The translations under genes were made by a program, and so were the position numbers. From a virus: a stretch of DNA of 29,889 nt. Numbering within the stretch: position 1 is the first letter of the stretch; each line of letters begins with the position of its first letter. Positions 15,010-29,889 of this stretch are shown here, piece after piece. The notes beneath the pieces are model-generated. The model searched no databases. It had not been told where the DNA came from and worked only from the letters and a program-made list of their open reading frames with translations. The stretch spans positions 1-29,889 of IMG/VR virus record IMGVR_UViG_3300042517_000733, one strand, 5' to 3'.

Positions 15010-15016
15010 CTAAATA
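15010..15016 (+). promoter_or_regulatory. Possible late promoter CTAAATA
   Basis: CTAAATA lies just after the 62-residue gene stop and upstream of the RlpA-like gene. The distance to its ATG at 15136 is long (119 bases), which would give a leader covering the GC-rich element described below. Confidence 0.35.
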
Positions 15017-15052
15017 ATCACTCATAATGATTTTTAGAATGAGTCTTTGATT

Positions 15053-15130: not shown

Positions 15131-15135
15131 ATTTA

Positions 15136-15498: not shown

Positions 15499-15507
15499 TA
15501 TACATAC

Positions 15508-15536
15508 TTGACAACTGAATACTAGGGAGTTATAAT
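15508..15536 (+). promoter_or_regulatory. Perfect-consensus sigma70 promoter for tRNA-Gly
   Basis: TTGACA (15508-15513), 17 bases, TATAAT (15531-15536). The predicted start is near 15543, eight bases before the tRNA. The -10 box is the centre of a perfect inverted repeat GGGAGT-TATAAT-ACTCCC (15525-15542). Confidence 0.85.
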
Positions 15537-15550
15537 ACTCCCTTACATAT

Positions 15551-15621
15551 GCGGGTATAGTGTAGTGGTAACATGCCATCCTTCCAAGTTGTAGTCAGGG
15601 GTTCGAATCCCCTTACCCGCT
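15551..15621 (+). tRNA. tRNA-Gly (anticodon TCC)
   Basis: The cloverleaf fits. The acceptor GCGGGTA pairs perfectly with TACCCGC, the D arm is GTGT/ACAT with a GG in its loop, the anticodon loop CTTCCAA gives anticodon TCC (codon GGA), and the T arm is AGGGG-TTCGAAT-CCCCT. No CCA is encoded. The anticodon stem CCATC/GTTGT has two mismatches (27-43 C-U and 30-40 U-U), which is unusual. It has its own consensus promoter. Confidence 0.9.
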
Positions 15622-15623
15622 TC

Positions 15624-15639
15624 CCCAGAAACATCTGGG
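15624..15639 (+). terminator. Hairpin after tRNA-Gly (terminator or processing signal)
   Basis: CCCAGA (15624-15629) pairs with TCTGGG (15634-15639) around AACA. It is followed by AATTATAAATA rather than a true T-run, so it is a weak terminator or a 3' processing hairpin. Confidence 0.5.
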
Positions 15640-15642
15640 AAT

Positions 15643-15650
15643 TATAAATA
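15643..15650 (+). promoter_or_regulatory. Late promoter TATAAATA before the porin gene
   Basis: An exact late-promoter box lies 31 bases upstream of ATG 15682. Confidence 0.7.
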
Positions 15651-15681
15651 AACACTGTAGTTGTAATTCTTAACAAACTAT

Positions 15682-17148: not shown

Positions 17149-17156
17149 TAAATATT

Positions 17157-17173
17157 GGAGGCAAAATGCCTCC
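17157..17173 (+). terminator. Hairpin after the porin gene
   Basis: GGAGGCA (17157-17163) pairs with TGCCTCC (17167-17173) around AAA. No T-run follows, so it may be a weak terminator, a transcript-stabilising hairpin or a processing site ahead of the next tRNA. Confidence 0.55.
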
Positions 17174-17177
17174 TCAT

Positions 17178-17248
17178 CGTGGGTGAGTGTAAAGGTAGCA
17201 CAGAAGTCTCATAAGCTTCAGGAGGGGGTTCAATTCCCTCACCCGCCA
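17178..17248 (+). tRNA. tRNA-Met-like (anticodon CAT), atypical acceptor stem
   Basis: The D arm GTGT/GCAC, anticodon stem GAAGT/GCTTC with loop CTCATAA (anticodon CAT), and T arm GGGGG-TTCAATT-CCCTC are all good. The acceptor CGTGGGT/ACCCGCC leaves a C1-C72 mismatch and has G instead of U at position 8. An alternative register (GTGGGTG/CACCCGC) pairs better but shifts the T loop. The anticodon stem lacks the three G-C pairs of initiators, so it is elongator Met or, if the C is modified to lysidine, an Ile tRNA. No CCA is encoded. Confidence 0.75.
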
Positions 17249-17250
17249 TT

Positions 17251-17258
17251 TATAAATA
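17251..17258 (+). promoter_or_regulatory. Late promoter TATAAATA
   Basis: An exact late-promoter box begins two bases after the tRNA-Met-like gene and ends 18 bases before ATG 17277. Confidence 0.65.
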
Positions 17259-17276
17259 TCTAAATTATGTGGAACA

Positions 17277-17528
17277 ATGTTAACAATAAGATGCAAGAGT
17301 TGCAACATAACATTAGAATCACATCCATCAAGAACTAAATGCTGTGGATGTGATAATTTAACTACTGTCAAAGGGGAAACAATTACTGCTTTAGATTTAA
17401 GTTTAGTAGAATTAATTACTACAAATCAAACTAAAAAATCAAAGTCATCTTTCAGCAGAGAAGATCTAGCTTATCAAGAAGAACGAAGAACTCGTAAAGT
17501 TCGAAAGTTAGAATTTGAAATCAAATAA
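17277..17528 (+). CDS. Small zinc-ribbon-like protein, unknown function
   Basis: An 83-residue protein. The N-terminal 25 residues have a CKSC pair (Cys6, Cys9) and a KCCGCDN cluster near residues 21-27, giving a likely four-Cys zinc site. The C-terminal half is a charged helix (REDLAYQEERRTRKVRKLEFEIK). This kind of small zinc-ribbon protein recurs in marine T4-like phages, with no known role. It sits behind a late promoter and is followed by a terminator, so it looks like a single-gene unit. Confidence 0.75.
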   Translation: MLTIRCKSCNITLESHPSRTKCCGCDNLTTVKGETITALDLSLVELITTNQTKKSKSSFSREDLAYQEERRTRKVRKLEFEIK

Positions 17529-17546
17529 GAGTATAAATTGATACCG

Positions 17547-17577
17547 ATGGTAAATAGTAAATCATTTGCCATTTTTA
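17547..17577 (+). terminator. Intrinsic terminator after the zinc-ribbon gene
   Basis: ATGGTAAAT (17547-17555) pairs with ATTTGCCAT (17564-17572), nine pairs including one G-T, around an 8-base loop. A short T-run follows at 17573-17576. It is AT-rich but well formed. Confidence 0.65.
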
Positions 17578-17578
17578 G

Positions 17579-17731
17579 ATGGACAATCATACTCTTAATA
17601 ACTGGATTAAGATAAAGGAAACTTTTGAAAAATCTGGCAACACTAATAATATGTTTTACAAAAGAGCTTGTGAAATCGTTAAAACTGGCAGAGATCCTTT
17701 GGAGAAATTTTTAAATGGTTGGGGTAGTTAA
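17579..17731 (+). CDS. Small conserved-type phage protein, unknown function
   Basis: A 50-residue ORF (MDNHTLNNWIKIKETFEKSG at the start). Helical composition and a FYKRACEIVKTGRDPLEKFL pattern resemble a recurrent short cyanophage protein. It begins within the terminator T-run of the previous gene, without an evident Shine-Dalgarno. It fills most of the otherwise empty interval between 17528 and 17830, which supports its being real. The function is unknown. Confidence 0.6.
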   Translation: MDNHTLNNWIKIKETFEKSGNTNNMFYKRACEIVKTGRDPLEKFLNGWGS

Positions 17732-17777
17732 ATTCATTCTAAATAATCCAGTTACTTTATTTTTGTTGTCATACCTC

Positions 17778-17806
17778 TTGATTATGACACCAATTATAGG
17801 TATAAT
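17778..17806 (+). promoter_or_regulatory. Sigma70-type promoter of the glycan cassette
   Basis: TTGATT (17778-17783), 17 bases, TATAAT (17801-17806). The predicted start is near 17813, giving a 17-base leader to ATG 17830. A GTCAT/ATGAC inverted repeat (17768-17788) overlaps the -35 box and could be an operator. A CTAAATA box at 17739-17745 may add late expression. Confidence 0.75.
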
Positions 17807-17829
17807 GATAATACATAACAAAAAAAATT

Positions 17830-18876
17830 ATGAGTGAGTATATTAAAACAGCACTGGTCCTTGGTGCTGGTGGTTTCATTGGAAGTCATATGGTTAGGAG
17901 ACTTCGTTCTGAGGGATACTGGGTTCGGGGTGTAGACCTGAAACTCCCGGAGTTTTCTGAAACAGAGGCAAATGAGTTTATTCTTGGAGATCTTCGGGAT
18001 GTAAAATTCGTTGCTGCTTGTCTTCAATTCAAAGGTTACTTGGGAAATTTTTATCAATTAGTTCCAGATAATCACATTCAATCATTTGATGAGATCTATC
18101 AGTTTGCTGCTGATATGGGTGGTGCAGGATTTGTCTTCACTGGTGAGAACGATGCAGACATCATGCACAACTCTGCAACGATTAATTTGAATGTTCTGGA
18201 AATGCAAAAGGAACGTAATGAAAGAGACGGTGTAAATAAGACTAAAATTTTCTACTCTGGATCTGCTTGCATGTATCCTGAGCACAATCAACTCGATCCA
18301 AATAACCCAGATTGCCGTGAAGAATCAGCATACCCAGCAGCACCCGATTCTGAATATGGTTGGGAGAAACTGTTCTCAGAGCGGTTGTTTTTCGCTTATT
18401 CTCGTAATTACGGGATCCCTGTTCGGGTTGCTAGGTATCATAATATCTTTGGACCTGAAGGAACTTGGGAAGGTGGAAGAGAGAAAGCACCTGCAGCAAT
18501 CTGCCGTAAAGTTGCCTATCTTCCAGAAGAAGGTGGATCCATCGAGGTGTGGGGAGATGGCCTACAAACTCGTTCCTTCCTGTACATTGATGAATGCATC
18601 GAAGCAACCCGTCGAATGATGGATTCCGATTTCCAAGGTCCCGTCAATATTGGTTCTGAGGAAATGGTTACTATCAATCAACTTGTAGATACTGCTGCTA
18701 AAGTTGCCAACAAAGAAGTAAATAAAGTCCATATTGATGGACCTCTTGGTGTTCGTGGTCGCAATTCTAATAATGATCTGATTCGTAAAAAACTTGGATG
18801 GGATTATTCACAAACTCTAGAAGAGGGAATTCGTGAGACTTATAACTGGATTAAGCAACAAATTGATCTGAAGTGA
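17830..18876 (+). CDS. GDP-mannose 3,5-epimerase-like NAD-dependent epimerase
   Basis: A 348-residue extended short-chain dehydrogenase. The Rossmann motif GAGGFIG lies at 12-18. It matches plant GDP-mannose 3',5'-epimerase closely: GSACMYP with Cys147, YGWEK with Tyr176 and Lys180, and GGREKAPAA with Lys219, corresponding to Arabidopsis C145, Y174, K178 and K217 (a constant offset of two). The later blocks (EVWGDGLQTRSF, IDEC, VNIGSEEMV, GVRGRNS) are also of that family. The reaction converts GDP-D-mannose to GDP-L-galactose or GDP-L-gulose. An insertion of about 25 residues lies near 64-90 relative to the plant enzyme. It is first in the cassette, behind a host-type promoter, and the GT11 that follows can use such a donor. 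Confidence 0.88.
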   Translation: MSEYIKTALVLGAGGFIGSHMVRRLRSEGYWVRGVDLKLPEFSETEANEFILGDLRDVKFVAACLQFKGYLGNFYQLVPDNHIQSFDEIYQFAADMGGAGFVFTGENDADIMHNSATINLNVLEMQKERNERDGVNKTKIFYSGSACMYPEHNQLDPNNPDCREESAYPAAPDSEYGWEKLFSERLFFAYSRNYGIPVRVARYHNIFGPEGTWEGGREKAPAAICRKVAYLPEEGGSIEVWGDGLQTRSFLYIDECIEATRRMMDSDFQGPVNIGSEEMVTINQLVDTAAKVANKEVNKVHIDGPLGVRGRNSNNDLIRKKLGWDYSQTLEEGIRETYNWIKQQIDLK

Positions 18877-18877
18877 T

Positions 18878-19678
18878 ATGATTTCATTTAATTATCTTGG
18901 TAATTTAGGAAGACTTGCCAATCAGATGTTTCAATATGCTTCTTTGATGGGGATTGCAAGTAATCGTGAAATGGAATATTGTATCCCCCCGAAACACGTT
19001 TTTGGTAAATTTGATTCTTTGGTAAAATCTTCCGACACTAATTTATATGAGTGTTTTGATATTAACCCCCAAAATATTGGGATAACTGATTATAAAATCA
19101 GGCAAGAATCAAGTTTTGCTTTTGATAAAAATTTATTTAATTTCTGCGAAGATAGAACAAATATTAATGGATATCTTCAGACAGAAAAATATTTCAAACA
19201 CATTAAGGATGATATAAAAAAACAATTTTCCTTTAAATCTGAAATACTTGAACCATCTAAAAGTAAGTTTGAGGAATTTTTTTCTGGTTCTGAAGTAATC
19301 TCTTTACATATTCGTAGAGGGGATTACATTGTAAATCCAAATCATCCGGTACAATCTTTGGATTATTATAAAAATTCTTTAGATCTACTGGATAAAAATT
19401 TTCCAGTTTTGATAGTTTCTGATGATCCAAAATGGTGCAACCGACAAAGTATTTTTGATGATGATCGATTCTTTGTTTCTGATTTGGGAAACACAAATGT
19501 TGATTTGTGTTTGATGTCACTTTGCAATTATCATATTATAGCCAATTCCTCCTTTTCTTGGTGGGGGTCTTGGTTGGCAAATAGTAAAAAAACAATTGCC
19601 CCCAAAAACTGGTTTGGTGGTGATTGTATAAATCATAATACGGACGATTTGTATTGTTCAGACTGGATTATTCTATAG
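18878..19678 (+). CDS. GT11 alpha-1,2-fucosyltransferase-like glycosyltransferase
   Basis: A 266-residue protein with the GT11 signature blocks: LGRLANQMFQYAS near residues 10-22, HIRRGDY at 144-150 (the Arg-rich GDP-binding motif) and SSFSWWGSWL at 224-233. GT11 enzymes transfer L-fucose from GDP-fucose to the 2-position of a galactose, making H-type structures. No GDP-fucose synthase is in the window, but the preceding gene makes GDP-L-galactose, the 6-hydroxy analogue, which some fucosyltransferases accept. The donor here is therefore uncertain. It starts one base after the epimerase stop. Confidence 0.9.
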   Translation: MISFNYLGNLGRLANQMFQYASLMGIASNREMEYCIPPKHVFGKFDSLVKSSDTNLYECFDINPQNIGITDYKIRQESSFAFDKNLFNFCEDRTNINGYLQTEKYFKHIKDDIKKQFSFKSEILEPSKSKFEEFFSGSEVISLHIRRGDYIVNPNHPVQSLDYYKNSLDLLDKNFPVLIVSDDPKWCNRQSIFDDDRFFVSDLGNTNVDLCLMSLCNYHIIANSSFSWWGSWLANSKKTIAPKNWFGGDCINHNTDDLYCSDWIIL

Positions 19679-19688
19679 GAGAATTAAA

Positions 19689-20291
19689 ATGGTTAACTTA
19701 TTCAAACAAACATGGTGGGACAACAATCTAAGCGACACTCAGAAATTCAATGAGTATCTTGGATGGTTGGGAAATGAAAATGCAGAGTCTAGAGTTTTTA
19801 TTCGAGAAAATATTAAAGATTTGGAAATTAAATCAATTGCTGATTTTGGGTGTGGTCCTTGTGTAGAATATAACGCACTTACTTCTGATGGTTATGAATT
19901 TAATTATCTTGGAATTGATTCATGTGTTCACTTGAAAGAACTAAATGAATCGAGGGGAATTAATTTCCTTCAAGCGCCAGTAGAGAATACTGGTCTTGAT
20001 GACAATTCATATGAACTCTCATATTCTCGTCATGTTTTTGAGCATCTTCCCACATATAAAGATGCTTTAAATGAAATGATTAGAGTTGCAAGTAAATATG
20101 TAGTTCATATCTTTTTTATTAAACCTAATGACGAAGAAAAGATTGATCATTGGGAACAGGAAAATCTTTATCATAACCACTATAAAAAATCTGATCTTGA
20201 AGCATACTTGAAAAGAAATAAAAAGGTAAAATCTTTTGAGTGGATGGATATTAATCAAAATGAAAATGCACTAGTAATTAACGTTAATTGA
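19689..20291 (+). CDS. SAM-dependent methyltransferase (class I)
   Basis: A 200-residue Rossmann methyltransferase. Motif I is ADFGCGP at 51-57, the acidic end of beta 2 is GID near 75-77, and a SRHVFEHLPTYKDALNEM segment near 113-130 matches the methyltransferase-11 pattern. An AGGAG Shine-Dalgarno lies at 19677-19681. It lies between two glycosyltransferases, so O-methylation of a sugar is the likely role, for example capping the chain. The exact acceptor cannot be read from the sequence; many cassettes of this kind methylate the terminal sugar. Confidence 0.85.
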   Translation: MVNLFKQTWWDNNLSDTQKFNEYLGWLGNENAESRVFIRENIKDLEIKSIADFGCGPCVEYNALTSDGYEFNYLGIDSCVHLKELNESRGINFLQAPVENTGLDDNSYELSYSRHVFEHLPTYKDALNEMIRVASKYVVHIFFIKPNDEEKIDHWEQENLYHNHYKKSDLEAYLKRNKKVKSFEWMDINQNENALVINVN

Positions 20292-20292
20292 A

Positions 20293-21003
20293 ATGAAAAT
20301 TTGTATTTTAAACATTGCGACAAATAAATATATTCAATTTGTCGAACAACTTCTAAATTCTGTAGAAGAAAATTTTTTGAACGGGCACGAAATTTCTGCA
20401 TTGGTTTTTACAAATCATGAAATTGAAGAAGTTTCTGATAATGTAAAAATCTCTCAGATTGAGCATGAGCAGTGGCCTATCCCCACATTAAAAAGATATC
20501 ACTACTTCATGAAAGAGAAAGAATATATTTCTCAATTTGATTATTGCTTCTACATGGATGTTGATATGCGAATCGAAGATAAAGTTGGAGATGAAATTCT
20601 TGGTGATTTAGTTGCTACTCAACATCCTGGATTTTGGTTTAAAAGTCCAGATGAATTCTCTTATGAAAGAAGAGAAAGGTCCACTGCATATGTTCCATAT
20701 GGTGAGGGGAAAATGTATTATGCTGGTGGATTTAATGGTGGAAAACCAGGTTATTTTTTAAAGATGGCAGAAACGATTGTTAATAATGTTGAGAAAGATT
20801 TTGAGAATAATCTAATTGCCGTATGGCATGATGAAAGTCATATGAATAGGTATTTGATTAATAATCCTCCAACTGTAGAATTAACTCCCTCTTATTGTTA
20901 TCCCGAAGCAGTTAGATTTAATCCAATGGGATGGAATGTTCCCTTTGAACCAAAAATCATTGCTTTAGAAAAAAATCATGCAGAGGTTAGAAGTGGATCG
21001 TAA
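20293..21003 (+). CDS. GT6 blood-group A/B-type alpha-1,3-Gal/GalNAc transferase
   Basis: A 236-residue enzyme with extended similarity to GT6, the family of human ABO transferases. It has a DVD metal motif at 89-91 (bacterial GT6s usually carry NxN), VGDEIL at 98-103, HPGFWF, YERRERSTAYVP, YYAGGFNGG at 142-150, WHDESHMNRYL at 178-188 with the active-site Glu181, and a C-terminal EKNHAEVR. In human enzymes the L-G-G versus M-G-A tripeptide at 266-268 sets GalNAc versus Gal. Here the tripeptide is A-G-G, so a GalNAc-type donor is suggested. GT6 acts on H-type acceptors made by GT11, which is encoded two genes upstream. A GT6 is already known in at least one cyanophage (P-SSM2). Confidence 0.93.
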   Translation: MKICILNIATNKYIQFVEQLLNSVEENFLNGHEISALVFTNHEIEEVSDNVKISQIEHEQWPIPTLKRYHYFMKEKEYISQFDYCFYMDVDMRIEDKVGDEILGDLVATQHPGFWFKSPDEFSYERRERSTAYVPYGEGKMYYAGGFNGGKPGYFLKMAETIVNNVEKDFENNLIAVWHDESHMNRYLINNPPTVELTPSYCYPEAVRFNPMGWNVPFEPKIIALEKNHAEVRSGS

Positions 21004-21892
21004 AATCGTAATTTGGGGATATCCTGATCATACTCATACTCATTCATATATTCATTATGGGTTTTACAAAGCTTTCAAATTTCTTGGATATGATGTAGTT
21101 TGGGTAGATGACTCTGAAGAAAACTCTGACATTGACTTGGATAATGCAATTGTAATTGGAGAAAAGAATGCAGTTAGTAATTTACAAATTAAAGATACTG
21201 CAACTTATTTTATTCATAATTATAGAGAAGACTTTGAGGAGACTGAATATGATAACGTTCACAACTACCTAGTTTATCACGAAAATTATTCATGGAATAA
21301 TGTAAAAAAAGTAGATGATTATTTCTGGTATTGCGAAAGAACAAAAACTCCAGTTATAATGTGGGCCACAGATTTACTTCCTGACGAAATAGATGATGTA
21401 AGTCCTTGTTTGTATGATGATACAAAAGATGAAGTACTTTTTGTGGGAACAATTCAAGGCAATAATCTAATAGATTTTGCTCACGTATGTGCTAATAATG
21501 GAAAGACCTTTGTTAATTTGGGTGGTTATACTGGATTTGATGATGAAGAACGTGGAATTCCATTCTATGACTATGATAGAAGTATTGATGCTGTGAGAAA
21601 TTCATACATTTCATTTGACATTCGAGAAAAAAATCATTTGGAAAATGGTTATGTCCCATGTAGGATTTTCAAAAATATCAGTTATGGAAAATGGACAGGA
21701 TCTAATTCAACAAAACTTGATAAGTTTTTTGGTGATAGAATTACTATCAATGGCAATTTAGAAAAATTATATAAATCTATTGTTGAGGATTATAAAAAAA
21801 GTGATGAAAATATTCTAAGAGATAACATGAACTATATTAAGAATAATCATACATACGTAAATAGAATTAATTCTTTGTTATCTGTATTATGA
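20978..21892 (+). CDS. Probable glycosyltransferase (GT-B-like), family not assigned
   Basis: Up to 304 residues. ATG 20978 overlaps the GT6 gene by 26 bases. A GTG at 20993 has AGAGG at 20982-20986 and may be the true start. The N-terminal part has a GT-B-like strand-helix pattern (KIVIWGYPDHTHTHSYIHYG, then FKFLGYDVVWVDD). The C-terminal part (DEVLFVGTIQGN, NSYISFDIR, GYVPCRIFKNISYGKW, LDKFFGD) resembles the donor-binding end of phage and bacterial GT-B enzymes, where a PxRxFKNISYG-type motif holds the nucleotide. The position inside the cassette supports this. It is not recognised with certainty. Confidence 0.6.
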   Translation: MQRLEVDRKIVIWGYPDHTHTHSYIHYGFYKAFKFLGYDVVWVDDSEENSDIDLDNAIVIGEKNAVSNLQIKDTATYFIHNYREDFEETEYDNVHNYLVYHENYSWNNVKKVDDYFWYCERTKTPVIMWATDLLPDEIDDVSPCLYDDTKDEVLFVGTIQGNNLIDFAHVCANNGKTFVNLGGYTGFDDEERGIPFYDYDRSIDAVRNSYISFDIREKNHLENGYVPCRIFKNISYGKWTGSNSTKLDKFFGDRITINGNLEKLYKSIVEDYKKSDENILRDNMNYIKNNHTYVNRINSLLSVL

Positions 21893-22728
21893 TTAAAATA
21901 TTTTCAGTTCATGCTAAACGAACCGATTTTTTAAAACTTCATGTAGATCATTTGAGATTTTTTTGTGAAGATGAGTTTCAATATTATTGTATAGATAATT
22001 TTTGCGATTCATCAAAGTCCAAAGAGATTAAAAGAGAATGTTCGAATCTTGGAGTTAACTATGTTAGATTTTCTAATTATGAAATAACAGGAACTGCTTG
22101 GGATCATTCTCCTACTTTAAATTCCATAAAGACAATAACCAATGATATCGATTTTAATGTAATTTTAGAATTTGATGTATTTTTAATTAATAAATTTTCT
22201 TTTATTAATTACCTAAAAGATTATAATATATCTGGAGTCTATCAGCAAAGAGATAATTTTAATATTGAGTATGTTGCTCCTTTTGTTGTTATTGTAAATA
22301 AAAATTCCGATTTTTCTTCACTTGACTTTGGAACTACTCCTGGAGATTCTTGTGATGTTGGGGGAAATACTAGATTTTATATTGAAACTAAGAATGTTAA
22401 GTGGATGAATCATACTTCAGCATTGATTCATCAAACAGATGATCAGTCATTTAATATTGATTATGATCCTTCATTTGGGTGTCAACTTATAGAAAATTCT
22501 TTTCTTCATTATTATAGGGGAACTAATTGGGATCAAAGATCTTCTGATTATGAATTTGTTAAAACTGAGTGGTTAAATAAAGCACTTTCTGAATCAAAAA
22601 TAAAAAATATTATAAACCACAAATACATATCAAAATATAATAAAATTATGTCTCATTCTTTTAGATATTGGAATGGTAATAATGATCTTTTTAATTCTAA
22701 ATTAAATCCGTATTTAAATGAAAATTAA
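21889..22728 (+). CDS. Cassette protein of unknown family, possibly GT-A-like
   Basis: A 279-residue, very AT-rich gene, joined to the previous gene by ATGA. The N-terminus (MIKIFSVHAKRTDFLKLHVD) and an acidic ILEFDVFL strand near residue 95 would fit a GT-A fold with its D-x-D-like site. A C-terminal FLHYYRGTNWD segment, near residue 205, recurs in other phage sugar genes I have seen. The classical DxD is not clear. It overlaps the downstream GT25 by 11 bases. Without a search, a glycosyltransferase or glycan-modifying role is only inferred from context. Confidence 0.5.
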   Translation: MIKIFSVHAKRTDFLKLHVDHLRFFCEDEFQYYCIDNFCDSSKSKEIKRECSNLGVNYVRFSNYEITGTAWDHSPTLNSIKTITNDIDFNVILEFDVFLINKFSFINYLKDYNISGVYQQRDNFNIEYVAPFVVIVNKNSDFSSLDFGTTPGDSCDVGGNTRFYIETKNVKWMNHTSALIHQTDDQSFNIDYDPSFGCQLIENSFLHYYRGTNWDQRSSDYEFVKTEWLNKALSESKIKNIINHKYISKYNKIMSHSFRYWNGNNDLFNSKLNPYLNEN

Positions 22729-23473
22729 TTTGTTAGAAGTTCCTATATACTACATCAATCTAGATGATCAGGATCAAAAAAGAAAACAAACCGAATCTTT
22801 GTTGAAGAAATTGGGGTTCAAATATGTCGAAAGATTTTCTGCTATTAGACATGATGCTGGTAGAATAATTGGTTGTGCTAGATCTCATTGTGAGATTTTA
22901 AGTAAAAAAATTAAACCACCATTTATAATACTTGAAGATGATTGCGATCTAAATCGAGAGTTTGTTTCTGAGATCGATGTGCCAGATAATGCAGATGCTT
23001 TATACTTAGGAATATCACATTGGGGTAGATATTTAAATCATTCCGGTCCTTATGTTCATACAGAAAGAGTTGATGAAAATATTGTAAGAGTTTATAATAT
23101 GCTTGCAACTCATGCAATCATGTATCTAAGTGATGAGTATGTTGATATTTGTAAAAGAATTTCATATCACTTTGGATATGAAATTGAGAATCATTTAGAT
23201 ATTGGATTTGCAGAGATTCATAAATTTTATAATGTTTATTCTTTTGATGAACCTCTATTCAGGCAATATGAATGGAGTGCAGTAACTACGGGTAAAATAA
23301 GTGAAGTTTCAATTGATAAAGGTACATCGGAAAAACTATATAAAAAAATATTGACAGAAGATAGTAATTATTATAAAATAAATGAAACCTTTAAATCTCC
23401 ACTAAAACCTCTCATTGAAATGAGAGATGTTAATGGAATTCCTGGATATTTTTTACCTGCAAAACTGATATGA
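22718..23473 (+). CDS. GT25-family glycosyltransferase
   Basis: A 251-residue protein of the LPS/glycan GT25 type. YYINLDDQDQKR lies at 11-22, GCARSHCEIL at 52-61 and ILEDDCDL at 71-78 (the acidic metal/donor site), in the family order. GT25 enzymes add galactose or glucose to LPS cores and O-chains. Compared with typical members (about 250 residues) the length is normal. It overlaps its upstream neighbour by 11 bases and ends in a four-base overlap (ATGA) with the epimerase gene, so the set is translated as a unit. Confidence 0.85.
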   Translation: MKINLLEVPIYYINLDDQDQKRKQTESLLKKLGFKYVERFSAIRHDAGRIIGCARSHCEILSKKIKPPFIILEDDCDLNREFVSEIDVPDNADALYLGISHWGRYLNHSGPYVHTERVDENIVRVYNMLATHAIMYLSDEYVDICKRISYHFGYEIENHLDIGFAEIHKFYNVYSFDEPLFRQYEWSAVTTGKISEVSIDKGTSEKLYKKILTEDSNYYKINETFKSPLKPLIEMRDVNGIPGYFLPAKLI

Positions 23474-24360
23474 AAAGTTTAGTCACTGGTGGTTGTGGTT
23501 TCATAGGATCACATTTGGTTGATCGTTTAGTTGATATTGGGCATGATGTAATAGTATTGGATAGAGTCCAACCAGTCCACCAAAATCCTAAAGCAAAGTA
23601 TTATATTCAAGATCTTTCGGAGAATTATTTTAAATATCTTCATCACTTTGAAGGTGTTAGTAATGTCTTTCATTTGGCATCGGATGTTTCTATTCCTTTT
23701 TGTGTAGAAAATCCAAATGAGAGTATGGCAAACAATACGTTATCTACGATGAATGCTCTTGAATGTTCTAGAATTCATAATATTGATAGATTTATGTTTT
23801 CCTCAACTTCCGCAGTTTATGGAAATACTTTCTTTATCCCCAGTTTAGAAACAAATCAAATTAATTGTTTAAATACATATTCTATATCTAAATATACTGG
23901 CGAACAATTATGTAAAATGTATTGTGAACTTTATGGATTGAAAACTATAATGTTCAGGTACTTCAATGTATATGGAGAAAGACAACATAAAACAGGTCAA
24001 TATGCTCCTGTTATGTCTATTTTTATGAATCAGAAAAAAAGTGGACAACCATTAACTATTATTGGTGAAGGATATCAGACAAGAGATTTTATTCATGTGT
24101 CTGATGTTGTTTATGCAAACATACTTGCATCTCAAAAAAGTCTTGATAATTATGGAGAAGTTTTTAATGTTGGAACTGGAGAAGGAATAGTCATAAAAGA
24201 TATTGCTGATATTATTTCATCGTATCAAATTTTTATTCCAGAAAGAACTGGTGAAGTTCTTCATTCCAGAGCAAATATTGATAAAATCAAAACACATCTT
24301 CAATGGAATTGCAATGTTCAAGTACTAGATTGGATTAAAGGGCAAATTAAAAATGGATAA
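23470..24360 (+). CDS. UDP-sugar 4-epimerase-like NAD-dependent epimerase (GalE/WbpP type)
   Basis: A 296-residue extended short-chain dehydrogenase with GGCGFIG at 7-13 for NAD binding. STSAVYG lies at 112-118 and the catalytic YxxxK is Tyr137/Lys141 (YSISK). FRYFNVYG and QTRDFIHVSDVV are the usual substrate-side blocks. This subgroup includes UDP-glucose and UDP-GlcNAc 4-epimerases, giving UDP-Gal or UDP-GalNAc. Either would supply the GT6 donor in the same cassette. A UDP-glucuronate-type role cannot be excluded by motif reading. It starts in an ATGA overlap and ends 8 bases inside the next gene. Confidence 0.82.
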   Translation: MKSLVTGGCGFIGSHLVDRLVDIGHDVIVLDRVQPVHQNPKAKYYIQDLSENYFKYLHHFEGVSNVFHLASDVSIPFCVENPNESMANNTLSTMNALECSRIHNIDRFMFSSTSAVYGNTFFIPSLETNQINCLNTYSISKYTGEQLCKMYCELYGLKTIMFRYFNVYGERQHKTGQYAPVMSIFMNQKKSGQPLTIIGEGYQTRDFIHVSDVVYANILASQKSLDNYGEVFNVGTGEGIVIKDIADIISSYQIFIPERTGEVLHSRANIDKIKTHLQWNCNVQVLDWIKGQIKNG

Positions 24361-25132
24361 AAATAAATCAACTTATAAACTCAAAAATCTTCCTCACGTA
24401 TATTATCTAAATCTGGATGGGCAGCCAGAGAGAAAAGAATATATGGAGGATCAATTTAAGTATTGGGAAATTGAAAATTATACTCGAATTTCTGCATACG
24501 ATGGTCGTCAAGATGATTTAAGTGATGTTATTTCTGGAAGATATCCCGAAATGATGACATCTGGTGAAATTGGTTGCACCACTTCTCATCTTAAAGCAAT
24601 TAAACATTGGTATGAGACCACTGATGCTCCTTATGCAATCATTATGGAAGATGATTGTAATTTAGAACCAGTTAAATATTGGAATTTTACTTGGAACGAA
24701 GTGATATCCAAAGTGCCATATGACTTTGATGTAATTCAACTATCTATTATTTGCACTGGAAACATTCACGTAAAACTTCACAAGAGGTTTGTGAATGATT
24801 TTTCCACGGCTGCTTATTTAATTACTCGTCACCATGCAACTAAATTGCTCAAGCATCATGTCAGAAAGGAAAAATATAAACTTGATAACGGAGTTAAACC
24901 TAGGGCAGTTGCAGATGATTTGATTTACAATAGTGGGAATACCTTTAGTATTCCATTGTTACTGTATAAATTAGACCTAGGTTCTTCAATTCATCCAGAA
25001 CATATTGATATGTTTCATAAGCAAAGTTATGAGGGAATATTAAACTTTTGGAAGCAAAATGGACCTGATTTAAGTATAAGTGACATCATGAACTATGATC
25101 CATATCTTGGAAGGATAACAAATCCCTCTTGA
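24353..25132 (+). CDS. Second GT25-family glycosyltransferase
   Basis: A 259-residue GT25 member with the same order of motifs as the earlier copy: HVYYLNLDGQPERKEY near 15-30, GEIGCTTSHLKAI at 71-83 and IIMEDDCNLEP at 96-106. Sequence between the motifs differs much from the first copy, so the pair is not a recent duplication. It overlaps the epimerase by 8 bases and is the last gene of the cassette. Its stop codon overlaps the -35 box of the hli promoter. Confidence 0.87.
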   Translation: MDKNKSTYKLKNLPHVYYLNLDGQPERKEYMEDQFKYWEIENYTRISAYDGRQDDLSDVISGRYPEMMTSGEIGCTTSHLKAIKHWYETTDAPYAIIMEDDCNLEPVKYWNFTWNEVISKVPYDFDVIQLSIICTGNIHVKLHKRFVNDFSTAAYLITRHHATKLLKHHVRKEKYKLDNGVKPRAVADDLIYNSGNTFSIPLLLYKLDLGSSIHPEHIDMFHKQSYEGILNFWKQNGPDLSISDIMNYDPYLGRITNPS

Positions 25133-25157
25133 CAAACCACCAATAGGCATATATACT
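25129..25157 (+). promoter_or_regulatory. Sigma70-type promoter of the hli/ferredoxin operon
   Basis: TTGACA (25129-25134), 17 bases, TATACT (25152-25157). The -35 box overlaps the stop codon of the last glycan gene. The predicted start is near 25164, 21 bases before ATG 25185. Confidence 0.8.
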
Positions 25158-25184
25158 GATGTAACAATTCGTAATAAAACGGAA

Positions 25185-25379
25185 ATGACTGTAACGACTA
25201 ATGATCGTGGACAACAGAATATGTGGGCAAAAGAACCCACTATGTATTATGAAAACTATGGTATGGACACTCCCAATCAAGTAAAGGAGAAGTATAATGG
25301 GCGCTGGGCAATGGTCGGTATTATTTGTGGTGCTATTTCTTATATGGTCACTGGTAATCTATTCTTCGGAATCTTCTAA
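25185..25379 (+). CDS. hli: High-light-inducible protein (Hli)
   Basis: A 64-residue single-helix chlorophyll-a/b-binding-like protein. The signature E-x-x-N-G-R-W-A-M-V-G lies at 35-45, with Glu35, Asn38 and Arg40 as the pigment-binding set. The following hydrophobic helix runs to about 60. Such proteins bind chlorophyll and carotenoid in thylakoid membranes and protect photosystem II. It is the first gene of a photosynthesis/redox operon behind a consensus host promoter, so expression is probably early. A second, shorter hli lies at 25999. Confidence 0.95.
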   Translation: MTVTTNDRGQQNMWAKEPTMYYENYGMDTPNQVKEKYNGRWAMVGIICGAISYMVTGNLFFGIF

Positions 25380-25389
25380 GTAGGAGGTA

Positions 25390-25418
25390 TTGACAATGAC
25401 TTCAATCATCTTTACAAT
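25390..25418 (+). promoter_or_regulatory. Possible internal sigma70 promoter upstream of ferredoxin
   Basis: TTGACA (25390-25395), 17 bases, TACAAT (25413-25418). It overlaps the start of the 28-residue gene and would give ferredoxin its own transcript. Confidence 0.45.
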
Positions 25419-25482
25419 AACATCTGTTGCCTTTTTTGTTTTGTTGGCAGCATCCGTAGAAAAAATTTGTGAGACTTATTAA
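25396..25482 (+). CDS. 28-residue single-span membrane peptide
   Basis: A tiny gene with a perfect AGGAGG Shine-Dalgarno at 25382-25387, 8 bases before the ATG. Its stop overlaps the ferredoxin start (TAATG). It encodes one hydrophobic helix ([13 protein letters not shown]) with a polar end (VEKICETY). The size and shape resemble small photosystem or cytochrome b6f subunits, but the sequence does not match any of PsbI, PsbM, PsbT, PsbX or PetN as I recall them. A role in thylakoid complexes is inferred from its position between hli and ferredoxin. Confidence 0.75.
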
Positions 25483-25775
25483 TGACTACTTTTAATATTA
25501 CTCTTCAAACACCCGATGGAACAGAAACTACAGTCCAGTGTCGAGATGACCAGTACATTCTTGAAGCAGCAGAGGATGCAGGTCTTGACCTTCCTTCATC
25601 GTGTAAAGCAGGTGCTTGTTCTGCTTGTGCAGGAAAACTCATCTCTGGCACCGTAGATAATGAGGAGCAATCGTTCCTTGATGATGAACAAATGGCAGAT
25701 GGTTGGGTCCTCACTTGCGTAGCATATCCCACCAGTGATTGTGTGATCCTTACTGAACAGGAAGAGAACCTGTGA
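25482..25775 (+). CDS. petF: Plant-type [2Fe-2S] ferredoxin
   Basis: A 97-residue ferredoxin with the complete cluster ligand set, Cys41, Cys46, Cys49 and Cys79 ([13 protein letters not shown] and VLTCVAYP). It accepts electrons from photosystem I. In phages it may feed ribonucleotide reductase-linked thioredoxin, bilin reductases or other redox enzymes. The length equals that of host PetF. It starts at the stop of the 28-residue gene (TAATG), and its own stop overlaps a GTG start for the next gene (GTGA). Confidence 0.96.
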
Positions 25776-26002
25776 CGGCAATCAACCCATCATCTGTTGA
25801 TATGTTAGGGCAATTCTCAATTGCTCTTCAAGAATTGGTTGATAGTGGTGCCTGGGATCGAAACGTAGAACTAGAAGTCAAGATTGCTGGCACTCTTAAG
25901 AATGATAAGTTTATTGTTATTAAACCTATCAAAGAAAAATTGGTTTGTAATCCAAACCCAGAATTAAAACAAAAACACCCTTATCAAGGAGAAAACAAAT
26001 GA
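25772..26002 (+). CDS. Small protein of unknown function in the photosynthesis operon
   Basis: A 76-residue protein that starts at GTG 25772, overlapping the ferredoxin stop (GTGA), and ends in an ATGA overlap with hli. This supports the unusual start. The N-terminal half is helical ([14 protein letters not shown]), the middle has beta strands ([22 protein letters not shown]), and the tail is Lys/Pro/Asn-rich. There is no recognised motif. The alternative ATG at 25802 would lose ten residues. A photosynthesis link is from position only. Confidence 0.65.
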
Positions 26003-26118
26003 AATTTGGATGGACTGAAGAAAACGAAAGACTGAATGGAAGACTGGCAATGCTAGGATTTGTAATTGCTGTAGGCACTTATCTCACCACAGGTCAAATT
26101 ATTCCTGGCATTTGGTGA
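25999..26118 (+). CDS. hli: Short high-light-inducible protein (Hli)
   Basis: A 39-residue minimal Hli with E-R-L-N-G-R-L-A-M-L-G at 10-20, then a hydrophobic helix ending GQIIPGIW. The length is that of the short hli genes common in cyanophages. AAGGAG at 25986-25991 supplies a Shine-Dalgarno, and the gene overlaps its upstream neighbour by ATGA. The two hli genes in this operon differ in N-terminal length, so they are not a simple duplication. Confidence 0.93.
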   Translation: MKFGWTEENERLNGRLAMLGFVIAVGTYLTTGQIIPGIW

Positions 26119-26119
26119 G

Positions 26120-26263
26120 ATGAAGTATGAAGTGCAATTGTATGTTGGAGGCACAGTATTTTATGAAACAGTTGAAGCAGTAAACTATCAAGATGCAAAA
26201 CAAACTGCACTTGCAAGAAATCCAAAAGCAAAAATAATTGCTGTAAATATAAAATTTAAATGA
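26120..26263 (+). CDS. Small conserved-type protein, unknown function
   Basis: A 47-residue protein starting one base after the hli stop and ending in an ATGA overlap with the peroxiredoxin gene. The pattern is beta strand (YEVQLYVGGTVFYETV), helix (YQDAKQTALARNP), strand (KIIAVNIKFK), which could be a small beta-alpha-beta fold. There is no known motif. Overlaps at the downstream end support it as a real gene. Confidence 0.65.
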   Translation: MKYEVQLYVGGTVFYETVEAVNYQDAKQTALARNPKAKIIAVNIKFK

Positions 26264-26805
26264 ATATGGAGGTTAAAGTGCGTAAAGAACAATATACTGT
26301 CCCTAATGTTGAATTTATTTTTAGGGAAAATGGTGAGTTTGTAACTAAAACAACAGATGATCTTTTTGCTGCAAAGCGTGTAATCATCTTTTCACTTCCT
26401 GGTGCTTTCACTCCTACCTGCAGTGCTTATCAACTGCCTGGTTTTGAGGAGAGATATGAAGAGTTTGATGCTCTTGGTATTGATGCTATATATTGCATCT
26501 CTGTTAATGATGCATTTGTGATGAATGCTTGGGAGAAAGACCAAGGGATCAAAAATGTAAAACTCATTCCAGATGGCAATGCTTATTTCACTCGCTCTAT
26601 GGGTCAACTCGTTGCCAAGACCAATCTTGGTTTTGGTGAGCGTTCTTGGAGATATGCTGCTGTGGTAGATAATGGTTTGATTGAAAAACTATTTGAAGAA
26701 CCTGGCAAAAGAGATAATGCACCTGAAGACCCTTATGTTGCAACTACTCCGGAAGCAGTTCTAGAGTATGTACAATCTACAATCAAGGTTGGTACTACTG
26801 TTTGA
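26260..26805 (+). CDS. Type II peroxiredoxin (Prx5-like)
   Basis: A 181-residue thiol peroxidase. The peroxidatic cysteine is Cys54 in PGAFTPTCS. A second cysteine (Cys79, in IYCISVNDAFVM) lies 25 residues on, the spacing of the Cys51/Cys76 pair in plant type II peroxiredoxins. The later WEKDQGI and LIPDGNAYFT blocks also fit. It reduces H2O2 and alkyl peroxides with thioredoxin or glutaredoxin. I use ATG 26260; a GTG at 26278 is also possible. It is the last gene of the hli/ferredoxin operon, before a terminator, so a photo-oxidative stress role in the infected cell is likely. Confidence 0.9.
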   Translation: MNMEVKVRKEQYTVPNVEFIFRENGEFVTKTTDDLFAAKRVIIFSLPGAFTPTCSAYQLPGFEERYEEFDALGIDAIYCISVNDAFVMNAWEKDQGIKNVKLIPDGNAYFTRSMGQLVAKTNLGFGERSWRYAAVVDNGLIEKLFEEPGKRDNAPEDPYVATTPEAVLEYVQSTIKVGTTV

Positions 26806-26825
26806 AATAACACTTAATAAATCTT

Positions 26826-26862
26826 AACTCTGTCTCTAAATAAGAGGCAGAGTTTTATTTTT
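26826..26862 (+). terminator. Intrinsic terminator with a late-promoter box at the loop
   Basis: AACTCTGTCTC (26826-26836) pairs with GAGGCAGAGTT (26844-26854), 11 pairs with one G-T, then a T-rich tail. The loop region reads CTAAATA (26836-26842), the same design as the element at 3504. Confidence 0.9.
26836..26842 (+). promoter_or_regulatory. Putative late promoter CTAAATA
   Basis: It lies within the terminator loop, 21 bases before ATG 26864. A start near 26848 would fall in the right arm, leaving an unstructured leader on late mRNA. Confidence 0.55.
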
Positions 26863-26863
26863 T

Positions 26864-27019
26864 ATGCCAAGAGGACAACTTACGAAGGACCAATTGAAGG
26901 TTCTTATCTTACAGCAAAAAAATAAACTTAACTATGAGCATTGTTCTGAAGAATGTAAGTCATTTGCAAATAAACATTTCAATCAGATACTAGATAGATT
27001 AGAAGAATTTAGAATTTAG
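26864..27019 (+). CDS. Small conserved-type phage protein, unknown function
   Basis: A 51-residue, basic and helical protein (MPRGQLTKDQLKVLIL at the N-terminus). It has two Cys (27 and 31) in an HCSEECK segment and a C-terminal amphipathic helix (NQILDRLEEF). Short proteins starting MPRGxLTKDxL are, as far as I can tell, frequent in cyanophages. It follows a terminator/late-promoter element and precedes the cell-wall genes. The function is unknown. Confidence 0.7.
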   Translation: MPRGQLTKDQLKVLILQQKNKLNYEHCSEECKSFANKHFNQILDRLEEFRI

Positions 27020-27028
27020 GAGAAACAA

Positions 27029-27541
27029 ATGATTGGACCTAAAAAGAAACCACAAGATTTTGGATTTAAATCTGGTGATACTCATATCATTGTGAATGAT
27101 ATTTCAGAAACGGCAAAGGCATATGATTTTACTGGAAAACTTTTGTGGGAACTTCCTGCATTGGCAAGAGGACAAGGAAGTGACTTTGAGTTTAAACTAA
27201 CAAATACAGATACTCCTCCTGGTCTTTATAAGATTGGAACCATCTATAAGGACTATGAAAATGTGGGTGCAAATCCTCCATATGATAGAACTTTAATGGC
27301 ATATGGTTGGTATAGTTTTGATCTTGTAGAACTTGAAAGTCAAGAAGCAAAATATGGTCGTGCTGGAATTATGGTTCATGGTGGAGGATCTGCTTGTGGA
27401 TGGCCTGGTGCTTGGGCACCAATGCAGAGACTTTTCTCAACTCATGGTTGTGTTAGAATGCATAACCAACATCTGAAAGATCACCTGCTTCCACTTACTA
27501 AAAAGGGAACTGTTTTTGTTTCTGTTTATCAAGAAGGTTGA
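27029..27541 (+). CDS. L,D-transpeptidase (YkuD)-like protein
   Basis: A 170-residue protein with a YkuD-type active site: His117 in IMVHGGG, then STHGCVRM with His139, Gly140, nucleophile Cys141 and Arg143. YkuD enzymes form 3-3 crosslinks in peptidoglycan or attach proteins to it; phage forms could instead cleave or modify wall peptides. No signal peptide or LysM domain is seen, so access to the wall would need a holin or delivery in the virion. An AGGAG-type Shine-Dalgarno precedes ATG 27029. The gene is followed at once by the lysozyme. Confidence 0.85.
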   Translation: MIGPKKKPQDFGFKSGDTHIIVNDISETAKAYDFTGKLLWELPALARGQGSDFEFKLTNTDTPPGLYKIGTIYKDYENVGANPPYDRTLMAYGWYSFDLVELESQEAKYGRAGIMVHGGGSACGWPGAWAPMQRLFSTHGCVRMHNQHLKDHLLPLTKKGTVFVSVYQEG

Positions 27542-27543
27542 TT

Positions 27544-28158
27544 ATGACTATTAAATTTATTGATGCTGTAAAACATCATCAAGATCTTCCACATCAACTA
27601 GATGCCTGGAATTTTCTTCAAGCATCAGTTCATAAAGAAATTCTAGATGAATTTTCTAGAAGATTTAGAAATCAAAAGATTGAACCAACACTGGAAGGTC
27701 TTCCTGAAAGGGGTGTCGATTTAATTAAGGAATTTGAAGGATGTCATCTTAAGGCATATTATGATCCTCTTACTGGTGGATTACCTATCACAATAGGTTG
27801 GGGAAGTACCAGAAGAAAAGATGGAACTAGATTTATGATTGGTAATACAATCACTCAAGATGAAGCAGATGATCTATTGTATTATCAATTGAGAAGGGAG
27901 TTTCTTCCTTCTCTACAAAAAATACCTTATTGGAGTGAGATGACTGATGGCCAAAGAGGTGCTTTGCTCAGCTTTGCTTATAATCTTGGTGCCGGTTTTT
28001 ACGGTGGTTCTAACTTTAATACTATTACTAAATGCCTAAAGAATAAAGAATGGGACAAAGTTCCTGATGCTTTATATCTTTATAGAAATCCTGGTACTAA
28101 TGTTGAAGCAGGATTAGCAAGAAGAAGAAAAGCAGAAGGTAATCTTTGGAAGTCTTAA
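27544..28158 (+). CDS. GH24 (T4-type) lysozyme, probable endolysin
   Basis: A 204-residue protein that cleaves the N-acetylmuramic acid to GlcNAc bond. The T4 lysozyme catalytic triad is recognisable as Glu65 (EFEGCHLKAY), Asp74 (YYDP) and Thr83 (ITIGWG). The tail (GLARRRKAEGNLW) is the family's C-terminal helix. The N-terminal 55 residues are an extra helical part that T4 lysozyme lacks and may bind the wall. I use ATG 27544, as the TTG at 27538 lies in the preceding stop region. Its stop is four bases into the tail of the convergent minus-strand gene. Confidence 0.92.
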   Translation: MTIKFIDAVKHHQDLPHQLDAWNFLQASVHKEILDEFSRRFRNQKIEPTLEGLPERGVDLIKEFEGCHLKAYYDPLTGGLPITIGWGSTRRKDGTRFMIGNTITQDEADDLLYYQLRREFLPSLQKIPYWSEMTDGQRGALLSFAYNLGAGFYGGSNFNTITKCLKNKEWDKVPDALYLYRNPGTNVEAGLARRRKAEGNLWKS

Positions 28159-28484
28159 TCTTCTTCTACTTTAGTTCTTAATGCAATCACTGTAGTTAAT
28201 ATAGTTAATAAAGTTTCAAATCCTCTTCTTTCAGATTCTTTGCAATCTGTTGGAGGAGGATTTTTTAATCCACCTAAAAGATTTGCATAGTTTGTTGTAC
28301 CTGGGATCATAAAATTGCAGGCAACAAAATTTAAACCAACAAATCCAATAATAGAACAGCAAACAGCAAAGATTAATTTATTCAAGATAGAACTTTGCTT
28401 TTTTCCTACCTCTTTTTGCTGGTCTTCTGATGAATCTGATGATTTCTGGGAACTGTCTTTTTGGTTGCGGTCTCCTATTCTCAT
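28155..28484 (-). CDS. Small membrane protein, possible holin-type lysis factor
   Basis: A 109-residue minus-strand protein. The N-terminal 30 residues are very polar (Ser/Lys/Gln/Asp). A hydrophobic segment (LIFAVCCSIIGFVGLNFVAC, about 37-56) is a likely membrane span, and a second, weaker one (TLLTILTTVIAL) lies near the C-terminus. GGGAG before the start serves as Shine-Dalgarno. It converges on the lysozyme with a 4-base overlap of the ends. A holin role is suggested by topology and by the neighbouring lysozyme, but no family was recognised. Confidence 0.7.
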   Translation of the reverse strand: MRIGDRNQKDSSQKSSDSSEDQQKEVGKKQSSILNKLIFAVCCSIIGFVGLNFVACNFMIPGTTNYANLLGGLKNPPPTDCKESERRGFETLLTILTTVIALRTKVEED

Positions 28485-28548
28485 TGAATACTCCCTCGTT
28501 GGTGATTAATCTCATAGCCAACAATCCAATAAGAAAAATCTTTTTCAT
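28378..28548 (-). CDS. Possible overlapping 56-residue ORF with basic tail
   Basis: A minus-strand frame beginning with MKKIFLIGLLAMRLITNEG, signal-like, then a strongly basic, Pro/Arg-rich tail (RRPQPKRQFP, RRPAKRGRKKAK). Its start overlaps the stop of the upstream 63-residue gene by ATGA. Most of it overlaps the start of the 109-residue membrane protein in another frame. Either this is a true overlapping gene or a chance frame; the coupling argues for it, the overlap against. Confidence 0.4.
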   Translation of the reverse strand: MKKIFLIGLLAMRLITNEGVFNENRRPQPKRQFPEIIRFIRRPAKRGRKKAKFYLE

Positions 28549-28736
28549 CTTCCTTCTGACTTATGTATAAAATCCTTGAGTTCCCTTAAGTATTGTCTCA
28601 ACAGATCTGCTTTTTGTAGATGCCACATATCACCACTCTTGAAGTATTCTTGAGTGTGATTATCTATTGCTTTTAGAATGTTATGTATAGGAGCATTCCA
28701 AGGTTCCCTTTTGGGAGTGTTCCATTCCCTTGGCAT
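28545..28736 (-). CDS. Small conserved-type phage protein, unknown function
   Basis: A 63-residue minus-strand protein (MPREWNTPKREPWNAPIHNI at its start) with Trp/Pro-rich opening and two helices (LQKADLLRQYLRELKDFIH). The opening is of a type that recurs in cyanophages next to psbA, as I recall. The late promoter on the minus strand at 28758-28765 lies 21 bases upstream of its start. It leads the small leftward unit that includes the membrane protein. The function is unknown. Confidence 0.72.
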   Translation of the reverse strand: MPREWNTPKREPWNAPIHNILKAIDNHTQEYFKSGDMWHLQKADLLRQYLRELKDFIHKSEGR

Positions 28737-28757
28737 ACAGGGAGAAGCAGTTTTAAG

Positions 28758-28765
28758 TATTTATC
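28758..28765 (-). promoter_or_regulatory. Late promoter GATAAATA (minus strand)
   Basis: Reads GATAAATA on the minus strand and lies 21 bases upstream of the leftward gene starting at 28736. Confidence 0.6.
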
Positions 28766-28785
28766 CCAGTTCAGAAATTGAACCA

Positions 28786-28814
28786 TTGACAGGATTTCCT
28801 GACAATGCTATGAT
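28786..28814 (+). promoter_or_regulatory. Sigma70-type promoter of psbA
   Basis: TTGACA (28786-28791), 17 bases, TATGAT (28809-28814). It would start a leader of about 160 bases before ATG 28982. Confidence 0.75.
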
Positions 28815-28819
28815 AAATA
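28812..28819 (+). promoter_or_regulatory. Late promoter GATAAATA overlapping the psbA -10 box
   Basis: GATAAATA at 28812-28819 shares its first three bases with the -10 box of the host-type promoter, so psbA can be transcribed early and late from nearly the same start. Confidence 0.6.
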
Positions 28820-28981
28820 CATCAACAGGTTAAGGAATGTTACAGTTCTTTAATCTTTGTAACTCCCATTAACCGAGACCTATGGGGAGTATAAATCAAG
28901 TCTCTCATATCCTAGAATAAGGGTGTCTAGGAAATAAGTAACTCCACCATGTCCCTGATGGATCTACTTACTCTTTTAAAA
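28820..28981 (+). ncRNA. Structured psbA 5' leader with a likely pseudoknot
   Basis: Three consecutive helices are visible: ACTCCCAT (28862-28869) with ATGGGGAGT (28882-28890, one bulge); CCTAGA (28911-28916) with TCTAGG (28926-28931); and TAAGTA (28935-28940) with TACTTA (28965-28970) enclosing CCAT/ATGG (28947-28950 / 28958-28961). The loop of the first helix holds GAGAC (28875-28879), complementary to GTCTC at 28900-28904, giving a possible H-type pseudoknot. Published comparative work describes conserved RNAs upstream of psbA in cyanophage and marine sequences (PhotoRC motifs); membership here is not proven. No strong Shine-Dalgarno is seen before the ATG. Confidence 0.6.
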
Positions 28982-29889
28982 ATGACTGCTACAATTTCAC
29001 AACAAAGACAATCTAATACTTGGGAACAATTCTGCAACTGGGTTACTTCAACTGACAACAGACTTTATGTTGGGTGGTTTGGAACCCTGATGATTCCAAC
29101 ATTGCTTGCAGCAACTATCTGCTTCATTGTTGCTTTCATTGCAGCTCCCCCTGTTGACATTGATGGAATTCGTGAACCAGTTGCTGGTTCTCTGATGTAT
29201 GGAAACAACATTATCTCTGGTGCTGTTGTTCCTTCGTCCAATGCTATTGGACTGCACTTTTACCCCATCTGGGAAGCTGCTTCCCTAGATGAATGGCTCT
29301 ACAATGGTGGACCTTTCCAACTTGTAGTGTTCCACTTCCTGATTGGTATCTATGCCTATATGGGTCGTGAGTGGGAACTTTCTTACCGTCTAGGTATGCG
29401 TCCCTGGATCTGTGTTGCATACTCTGCACCTGTTGCTGCTGCTTCTGCAGTATTCCTGGTCTATCCTTTTGGTCAAGGTTCTTTCTCTGATGCTATGCCT
29501 CTTGGCATTTCTGGTACTTTCAACTATATGCTTGTGTTCCAGGCAGAACATAACATCCTGATGCACCCCTTCCATATGCTTGGAGTTGCTGGTGTCTTTG
29601 GTGGTTCACTGTTCTCTGCTATGCATGGTTCTCTGGTTACTTCTTCACTGGTTCGTGAAACCACTGAAAATGAGTCACAGAACTATGGTTATAAGTTTGG
29701 TCAAGAAGAAGAGACTTATAACATTGTTGCTGCCCATGGTTACTTTGGTCGTTTGATTTTCCAATATGCGTCCTTCAACAACTCTCGCTCTCTACATTTC
29801 TTTTTGGCTGCTTGGCCTGTTGTTGGTATTTGGTTCACTGCTCTTGGAGTTAGCACGATGGCATTCAACCTGAATGGTTTCAACTTCAA
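28982..29889 (+). CDS. psbA: Photosystem II D1 protein (5' 302 codons; truncated by the window)
   Basis: The first 302 residues of D1, open to the window edge with no intron seen; the full protein is about 360 residues. Residue numbering matches cyanobacterial D1 exactly. Tyr161 (tyrosine Z), Asp170 (manganese ligand) and His198 (P680 chlorophyll ligand) are present. Residue 130 is Glu, the high-light-type form, not Gln. Phage D1 replaces the fast-turning host protein so that photosynthesis continues during infection. Codon use favours CTG and CGT like the porin gene, a sign of host origin. It has overlapping early-type and late promoters. Confidence 0.98.

Follow-up and report, generated by a model that had tools for sequence, protein, structure and literature searches.

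Several genes of bacteriophage T4 are controlled by a hairpin in their early RNA. For e, soc, 49 and I-TevI, such a structure conceals the ribosome site of the early RNA, and at e and I-TevI the late promoter is set in such a way that the late RNA lacks its 5′ part (PMC3014915 and PMC2988022, in the excerpts available). The same excerpts give segB and Aeh1 mobE as further hairpin-hidden cases (PMC3014915; PMC2988022), and present homing endonucleases of T4-like phages as hairpin-controlled late genes (PMC2988022). According to the accessible part of PMC1524935, T4 late motifs are located at -13 to -6, and the late promoter of Aeh1 is CTAAATA. In the sequence of T4 soc, the late motif TTAAATAAAGGAG is found in the loop between two arms that end at the ATG.

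A different composite element of T4-like phages is the PeSL (promoter-early stem-loop), reportedly described by Arbiol in 2010 and Comeau in 2014. PeSLs have early promoters beside a stem-loop and mediate gene shuffling. They are treated in the available part of PMC4503421, and cyanophage terminators and late promoters are both predicted in PMC3037559, likewise an excerpt. A late promoter nested within the loop of a terminator was not found described in these excerpts or elsewhere in the literature searched, in which subscription journals are thinly covered; its novelty is unproven.

The hairpin between the peroxiredoxin and phrog_566 genes

The window, i.e., the whole stretch of DNA that was analyzed, is a linear IMG/VR record of 29,889 bases and, by gene content, a fragment of a T4-like cyanophage. 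It encodes UvsX, a gp41-type helicase, MazG and ribonucleotide reductase. In addition, it encodes a high-light-inducible protein, ferredoxin, peroxiredoxin and psbA, the latter with a PhotoRC-II RNA (Rfam RF01717) at 28850-28945, immediately 5′ of the gene (28949). Other features of the window include a second tRNA at 17178-17248 (50.7 bits in Rfam; by eye, its anticodon is CAT), which is absent from the ARAGORN output, and a phage-encoded protein of the iron-uptake porin family (15682-17148; NF033921, E = 5e-88), whose gene adjoins an RlpA-like ORF (15088-15498). A SegE-type GIY-YIG endonuclease (PF19835) at 14401-14829 carries the label NAD synthetase in PHROGs.

The peroxiredoxin gene (Redoxin/AhpC-TSA) spans 26260-26805 on the plus strand, the strand that also carries the two nested hairpins and their flanking genes described below, and was rightly named in the initial annotation (phrog_2281, E = 9e-75; Redoxin PF08534, E = 2e-25). 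It is followed by an ORF of 51 amino acids starting with MPRGQL (26864-27019; phrog_566, E = 4e-11), a YkuD protein with L,D-transpeptidase fold (27029-27541; PF03734, E = 8e-9) and a phage lysozyme (27538-28158; PF00959, E = 1e-21; endolysin PHROGs). The phrog_566 product matched no Pfam family, and a sequence search that admitted E values up to 1 gave no solved relative. The earlier designation of these genes as a late-type unit holds by gene content alone (phrog_566, YkuD, Phage_lysozyme).

Between peroxiredoxin and phrog_566, a hairpin is predicted with a pyrimidine-rich 5′ arm AACTCTGTCTCT (26826-26837), the loop AAATA (26838-26842) and a purine-rich 3′ arm AGAGGCAGAGTT (26843-26854). The stem counts 12 pairs, one G-T included, which is the highest number among the 16 terminator-like sites in 15000-29889, and its folding energy of -17.2 kcal/mol (MFE; z -5.2) was equaled by none of 200 shuffles. 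A T-run interrupted by one A, TTATTTTTT, follows at 26855-26863, for which we propose roles as terminator tail and late leader, and the ATG of the phrog_566 ORF comes directly thereafter at 26864. The site thus has the stable stem and U-run on the same strand that characterize intrinsic terminators in sequence. At 26836-26842, it also contains CTAAATA, with CT in the stem and the remainder forming the loop, in agreement with the T4-type late motif (TATAAATA-like, with a variable first place). No Rfam family was found at the hairpin, and none of the best 60 of 64 sigma-70-like sites is located at 26800-26870, the remaining four being weaker.

T4-type late transcription starts 6 nt downstream of the motif and depends on gp55, gp33 and gp45. 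The late start at this locus is predicted at approximately 26848, inside the 3′ arm and about 16 nt 5′ of the ATG. According to sequence and folding, the late motif is located inside the hairpin and the late RNA would lack the 5′ arm: the hairpin forms in read-through RNA but not in RNA that begins at the predicted start, which keeps CAGAGUUUUAUUUUUU 5′ of the AUG. In the read-through RNA the 3′ arm is paired, although its match to a ribosome site is weak (GAG, 11 nt from the ATG).

The window contains a second element of this kind (copy 1, the one described above being copy 2). Copy 1 is a 14-bp hairpin at 3499-3533 (arms 3499-3512 and 3520-3533) followed by a T-run, between a gene for a MazG-like pyrophosphatase (3087-3497; phrog_22758, E = 3e-57) and a phrog_26930 gene (3536-4264; E = 3e-15). 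Its loop is AAATAAA, with CTAAATA at 3511-3517 and the ATG at 3536. Coordinates and folds of both copies bear out the initial annotation, which had noticed the same CTAAATA placement in a different stem. As a string, CTAAATA is present in the window at chance frequency (7 occurrences against 7.2 expected), and enrichment of the motif as such was rejected; the signal is its position within the hairpin. With one anchored criterion (at least nine pairs, at least four G-C, and a T-run), the window has two nested sites, whereas 300 dinucleotide shuffles of it have none. A tandem form, in which an ordinary hairpin is followed by ATAAATA, is seen elsewhere in the window at 6555-6587, 12934-12966 and 15622-15650.

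The boundary in related phages

The region downstream of peroxiredoxin was compared in 55 IMG/VR loci encoding this protein. By script, seven have the nested form, all with a phrog_566 ORF next, and 36 have a terminator followed by TAAATA. For the remaining 12, the script gave neither form or a terminator alone. Among these, at least seven of the eight C39-type loci scored as neither are plainly tandem by eye. The finder overlooked stems lengthened by G-T pairs beside the T-run; the counts given are those of the script. At the loci checked, the tandem form is followed by genes for a C39-peptidase-like protein (L019, L029) or a phage lysozyme (L006, L038). It consists of the same parts at the same boundary, but the promoter motif is outside the loop and after the T-run, the leader is longer and the 3′ arm is C-rich. 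Since terminator and TAAATA occur together at this boundary in either arrangement, the combination of a terminator and a putative late promoter appears to be the kept feature, marking the peroxiredoxin boundary in two architectures. In the isolate S-SRM01, the peroxiredoxin and phrog_566 genes are separated by the nested element, which is located at approximately 206932-206963 of MW015081, 5′ of QPX48283.

A scan with phrog_566, in which the downstream ORF instead of the motif decided which loci were taken, kept the best 80 of 407 relatives. Within these best 80, CTAAATA is in the hairpin loop at all 15 loci where the ORF starts with MPRGQL, representing eight distinct upstream sequences; three of the 15 (one distinct sequence, L106) have a stem with one mismatch that the first finder left unscored. 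One locus with an MPRNH start (L058) has the motif in the loop as well. The other 64 of the best 80, mostly MPKNQL paralogs, do not. The initial annotation had named a loop varying freely in relatives as the outcome that would speak against the design. Such variation is absent from the MPRGQL loci and present in the distant MPKNQL paralogs, which keep a hairpin with freely varying loops that lack TAAATA. Most MPKNQL paralogs (L057-L136) have TATAGATA immediately 5′ of a hairpin that is G-rich and is followed by a T-run and ATG, which is possibly a second geometry with the late start inside the 5′ arm. In the isolate Bellamy (L217), TTAAATA is located just 5′ of a hairpin upstream of the phrog_566 gene.

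The initial annotation had also proposed a comparison of stems, expecting covariation with constant loops, and both were found. The stems were compared in ten aligned elements (120 cells), with L004, which is in another register, and three elements of a second stem type set aside. Paired cells amount to 98.3% of the 120, and structures slid along the alignment pair 35-56%. Two-sided changes were found in eight cells against 2.8 in shuffles, a number reached by none of 500, and the covariation score is 0.291 compared to 0.182 in shuffles. These changes concern three of the 12 pairs, in the inner stem, which is not unusual as a pair count (76 of 500 shuffles); seven of the 12 pairs never vary and are hence uninformative. 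In the second stem type (L110, L124, L125), the stem is wholly different (ATCCTTCTCTCT...) and only the motif and the T-run are kept. At other gene junctions, where sites were chosen by motif, TAAATA is found in unrelated stems.

Occurrence of the nested arrangement in cyanophage DNA

To determine how frequently the arrangement occurs, 4.05 Mb of cyanophage loci were searched on both strands for strong hairpins with a given hexamer in the loop, the window itself (L001) being dropped. As controls served 14 permutations of TAAATA, and control sites near a TAAATA were left out. A stricter hairpin criterion was used because a loose one gave a high background for all hexamers. Over all loci, TAAATA was found in 37 hairpins, of which 32 have a T-run, 33 an ORF that starts no more than about 20 nt away and 29 both, compared to 93 hairpins for the summed permutations, with 27, 28 and 4, respectively. 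Three hairpins with no downstream ORF (L020, L160, L194) are included in these counts and are left out of the leader statistics.

The phrog_566, peroxiredoxin and gp41 scans that supplied part of these loci had been chosen for their nearness to the two copies, and the census was therefore repeated without them, using the isolates and the loci of the nrdA and gp48 scans (163 loci in total, 2.59 Mb). In this unanchored set, TAAATA gave 8 hairpins, of which 5 have a T-run, 7 an ORF start and 5 both; the permuted hexamers gave 66, 19, 16 and 2. The excess of ORF starts is significant (P = 0.0009) and that of T-runs is not (5/8 versus 19/66, P = 0.10), with both P values overstating independence because many elements are related by descent. 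S-SRM01 and Bellamy had entered this set through phrog_566. Subtracting the S-SRM01 element leaves TAAATA counts of 7, 4, 6 and 4, with P not recomputed.

The 33 elements with an ORF fall into 14 downstream protein groups, or about ten without single hits that lack a T-run. The groups include phrog_566, phrog_26930, phrog_22045, phrog_1462, phrog_13937 and phrog_8438, as well as a GIY-YIG homing endonuclease and, for S-PM2, a head-tail adaptor (phrog_211). Seven isolate cyanophages were scanned. One clear site was found in S-SRM01 and another in S-PM2, the latter at about 66.8 kb of AJ630128, 5′ of the gp14-like gene; Syn9, S-CRM01 and Bellamy have none (in Bellamy, 193,991 of 204,930 bases were scanned). 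Single weak matches in S-SM1 and P-SSM4 are probably due to chance. With strict criteria, neither T4 nor Aeh1 yielded a site. TAAATA directly 5′ of terminator hairpins was found 17 times, not clearly above the controls (3-29 for other hexamers). From the census and the isolate genomes together, the nested element is real but uncommon.

Nested elements also have a distinct 3′ arm. Its mean purine fraction is 0.67 in 31 nested elements, whereas 783 other terminators have 0.375; for 175 other terminators that are directly followed by an ORF start, the value is 33%. Judged by composition, nested elements, unlike ordinary terminators, place purines at the position expected for a ribosome site. Clear sites of this type (AAGGA, GGAGGT) are present in the arm of other nested elements, 6-8 nt before the ATG, and the predicted late leaders measure 13-23 nt across 28 elements with an ORF.

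Predicted working mechanism and alternatives

From the hairpin, T-run, loop motif and adjacent start codon, and from their conservation and covariation, we infer promoter use, start site, termination, masking and timing as follows. A polymerase coming from peroxiredoxin would transcribe the hairpin and T-run, causing intrinsic termination. In RNA that reads through, the purine-rich 3′ arm, likely the ribosome-binding stretch, would stay paired, and the next gene would be poorly translated. Late in infection, a gp55-type phage sigma factor would use the CTAAATA of the loop. The resulting RNA, starting at about 26848 without the 5′ arm, would form no hairpin, would escape termination and would have an unmasked leader. 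The phrog_566-YkuD-lysozyme unit is thus proposed to be expressed late only, because upstream RNA would be stopped or masked and RNA from the nested promoter would escape. We regard such a composite late switch, combining a terminator, ribosome-site hiding and a nested late promoter, as the probable function of the element.

The design extends the well-known T4 arrangement, in which, as far as the excerpts describe it, a late promoter is likewise present within a hairpin and upstream RNA folds and is masked. T4 e encodes lysozyme, and the presence of a Phage_lysozyme gene in the unit downstream of copy 2 makes for a close functional parallel. The T4 hairpins are not called terminators in these excerpts, whereas copy 2 has a stronger stem followed by a T-run. 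PeSLs resemble the element in being small intergenic composites of a promoter and a terminator stem-loop, but they have an early promoter beside the stem-loop instead of a late one inside the loop. On sequence grounds, the element is best filed as a variant of the T4 late-promoter hairpin that would work like one with an added terminator. Neither this addition nor the use at about ten gene junctions was found described in the literature searched.

Alternatively, the element could be a purely translational switch of the T4 e/soc/I-TevI type, with the T-run serving as a U-rich leader and no termination occurring. Its T4 precedents, as presented in the excerpts, need no terminator, purine-rich 3′ arms adjoin the start codon, and the excess of T-runs is not significant in the unanchored set. 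We nevertheless hold it to be rather unlikely, given the T-run excess over all loci, the strong stems of nested elements, and the ordinary terminator that un-nested relatives keep at the peroxiredoxin boundary. Still less probable is a pure transcription insulator, joining terminator and late promoter in one site for economy and without masking. The weak ribosome-site match of copy 2 and the tandem version at the peroxiredoxin boundary in relatives would fit such an insulator; the purine bias of the 3′ arm and the short, near-constant leaders of nested elements argue against it. A protein-binding signal in RNA or DNA, or an inverted repeat acting as DNA, with the likeness to a promoter being incidental, would account for the highly constant loop, yet it is very improbable, as the constant string is a T4-type late motif in coding orientation with promoter-like spacing to the ATG. 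Lastly, that an A+T-rich genome places TAAATA in some terminator loops by chance agrees with the frequency of CTAAATA alone and is hardly credible in view of the window shuffles, the permuted-hexamer census and a motif that stays constant as stems change, so that selection rather than chance, as originally suggested, holds.

For the composite late switch, we lean slightly towards considering terminator, late promoter and 3′-arm ribosome site as an undescribed three-in-one class of cyanophage element that was re-invented at, or moved between, about ten unrelated junctions, the stem being rebuilt and the loop kept. If the proposed mechanism is true, one stretch of 40 bases would halt early RNA, mask the start site and give rise to late RNA, and compact T4-like cyanophages would in this way silence late genes, here the lysozyme unit, that are located downstream of earlier genes. 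The signature, i.e., a free stem with TAAATA in the loop, a T-run and an ATG within about 15 nt, would then point to the likely starts of late genes in uncultured phages, with start sites predicted to within 1-2 bases.
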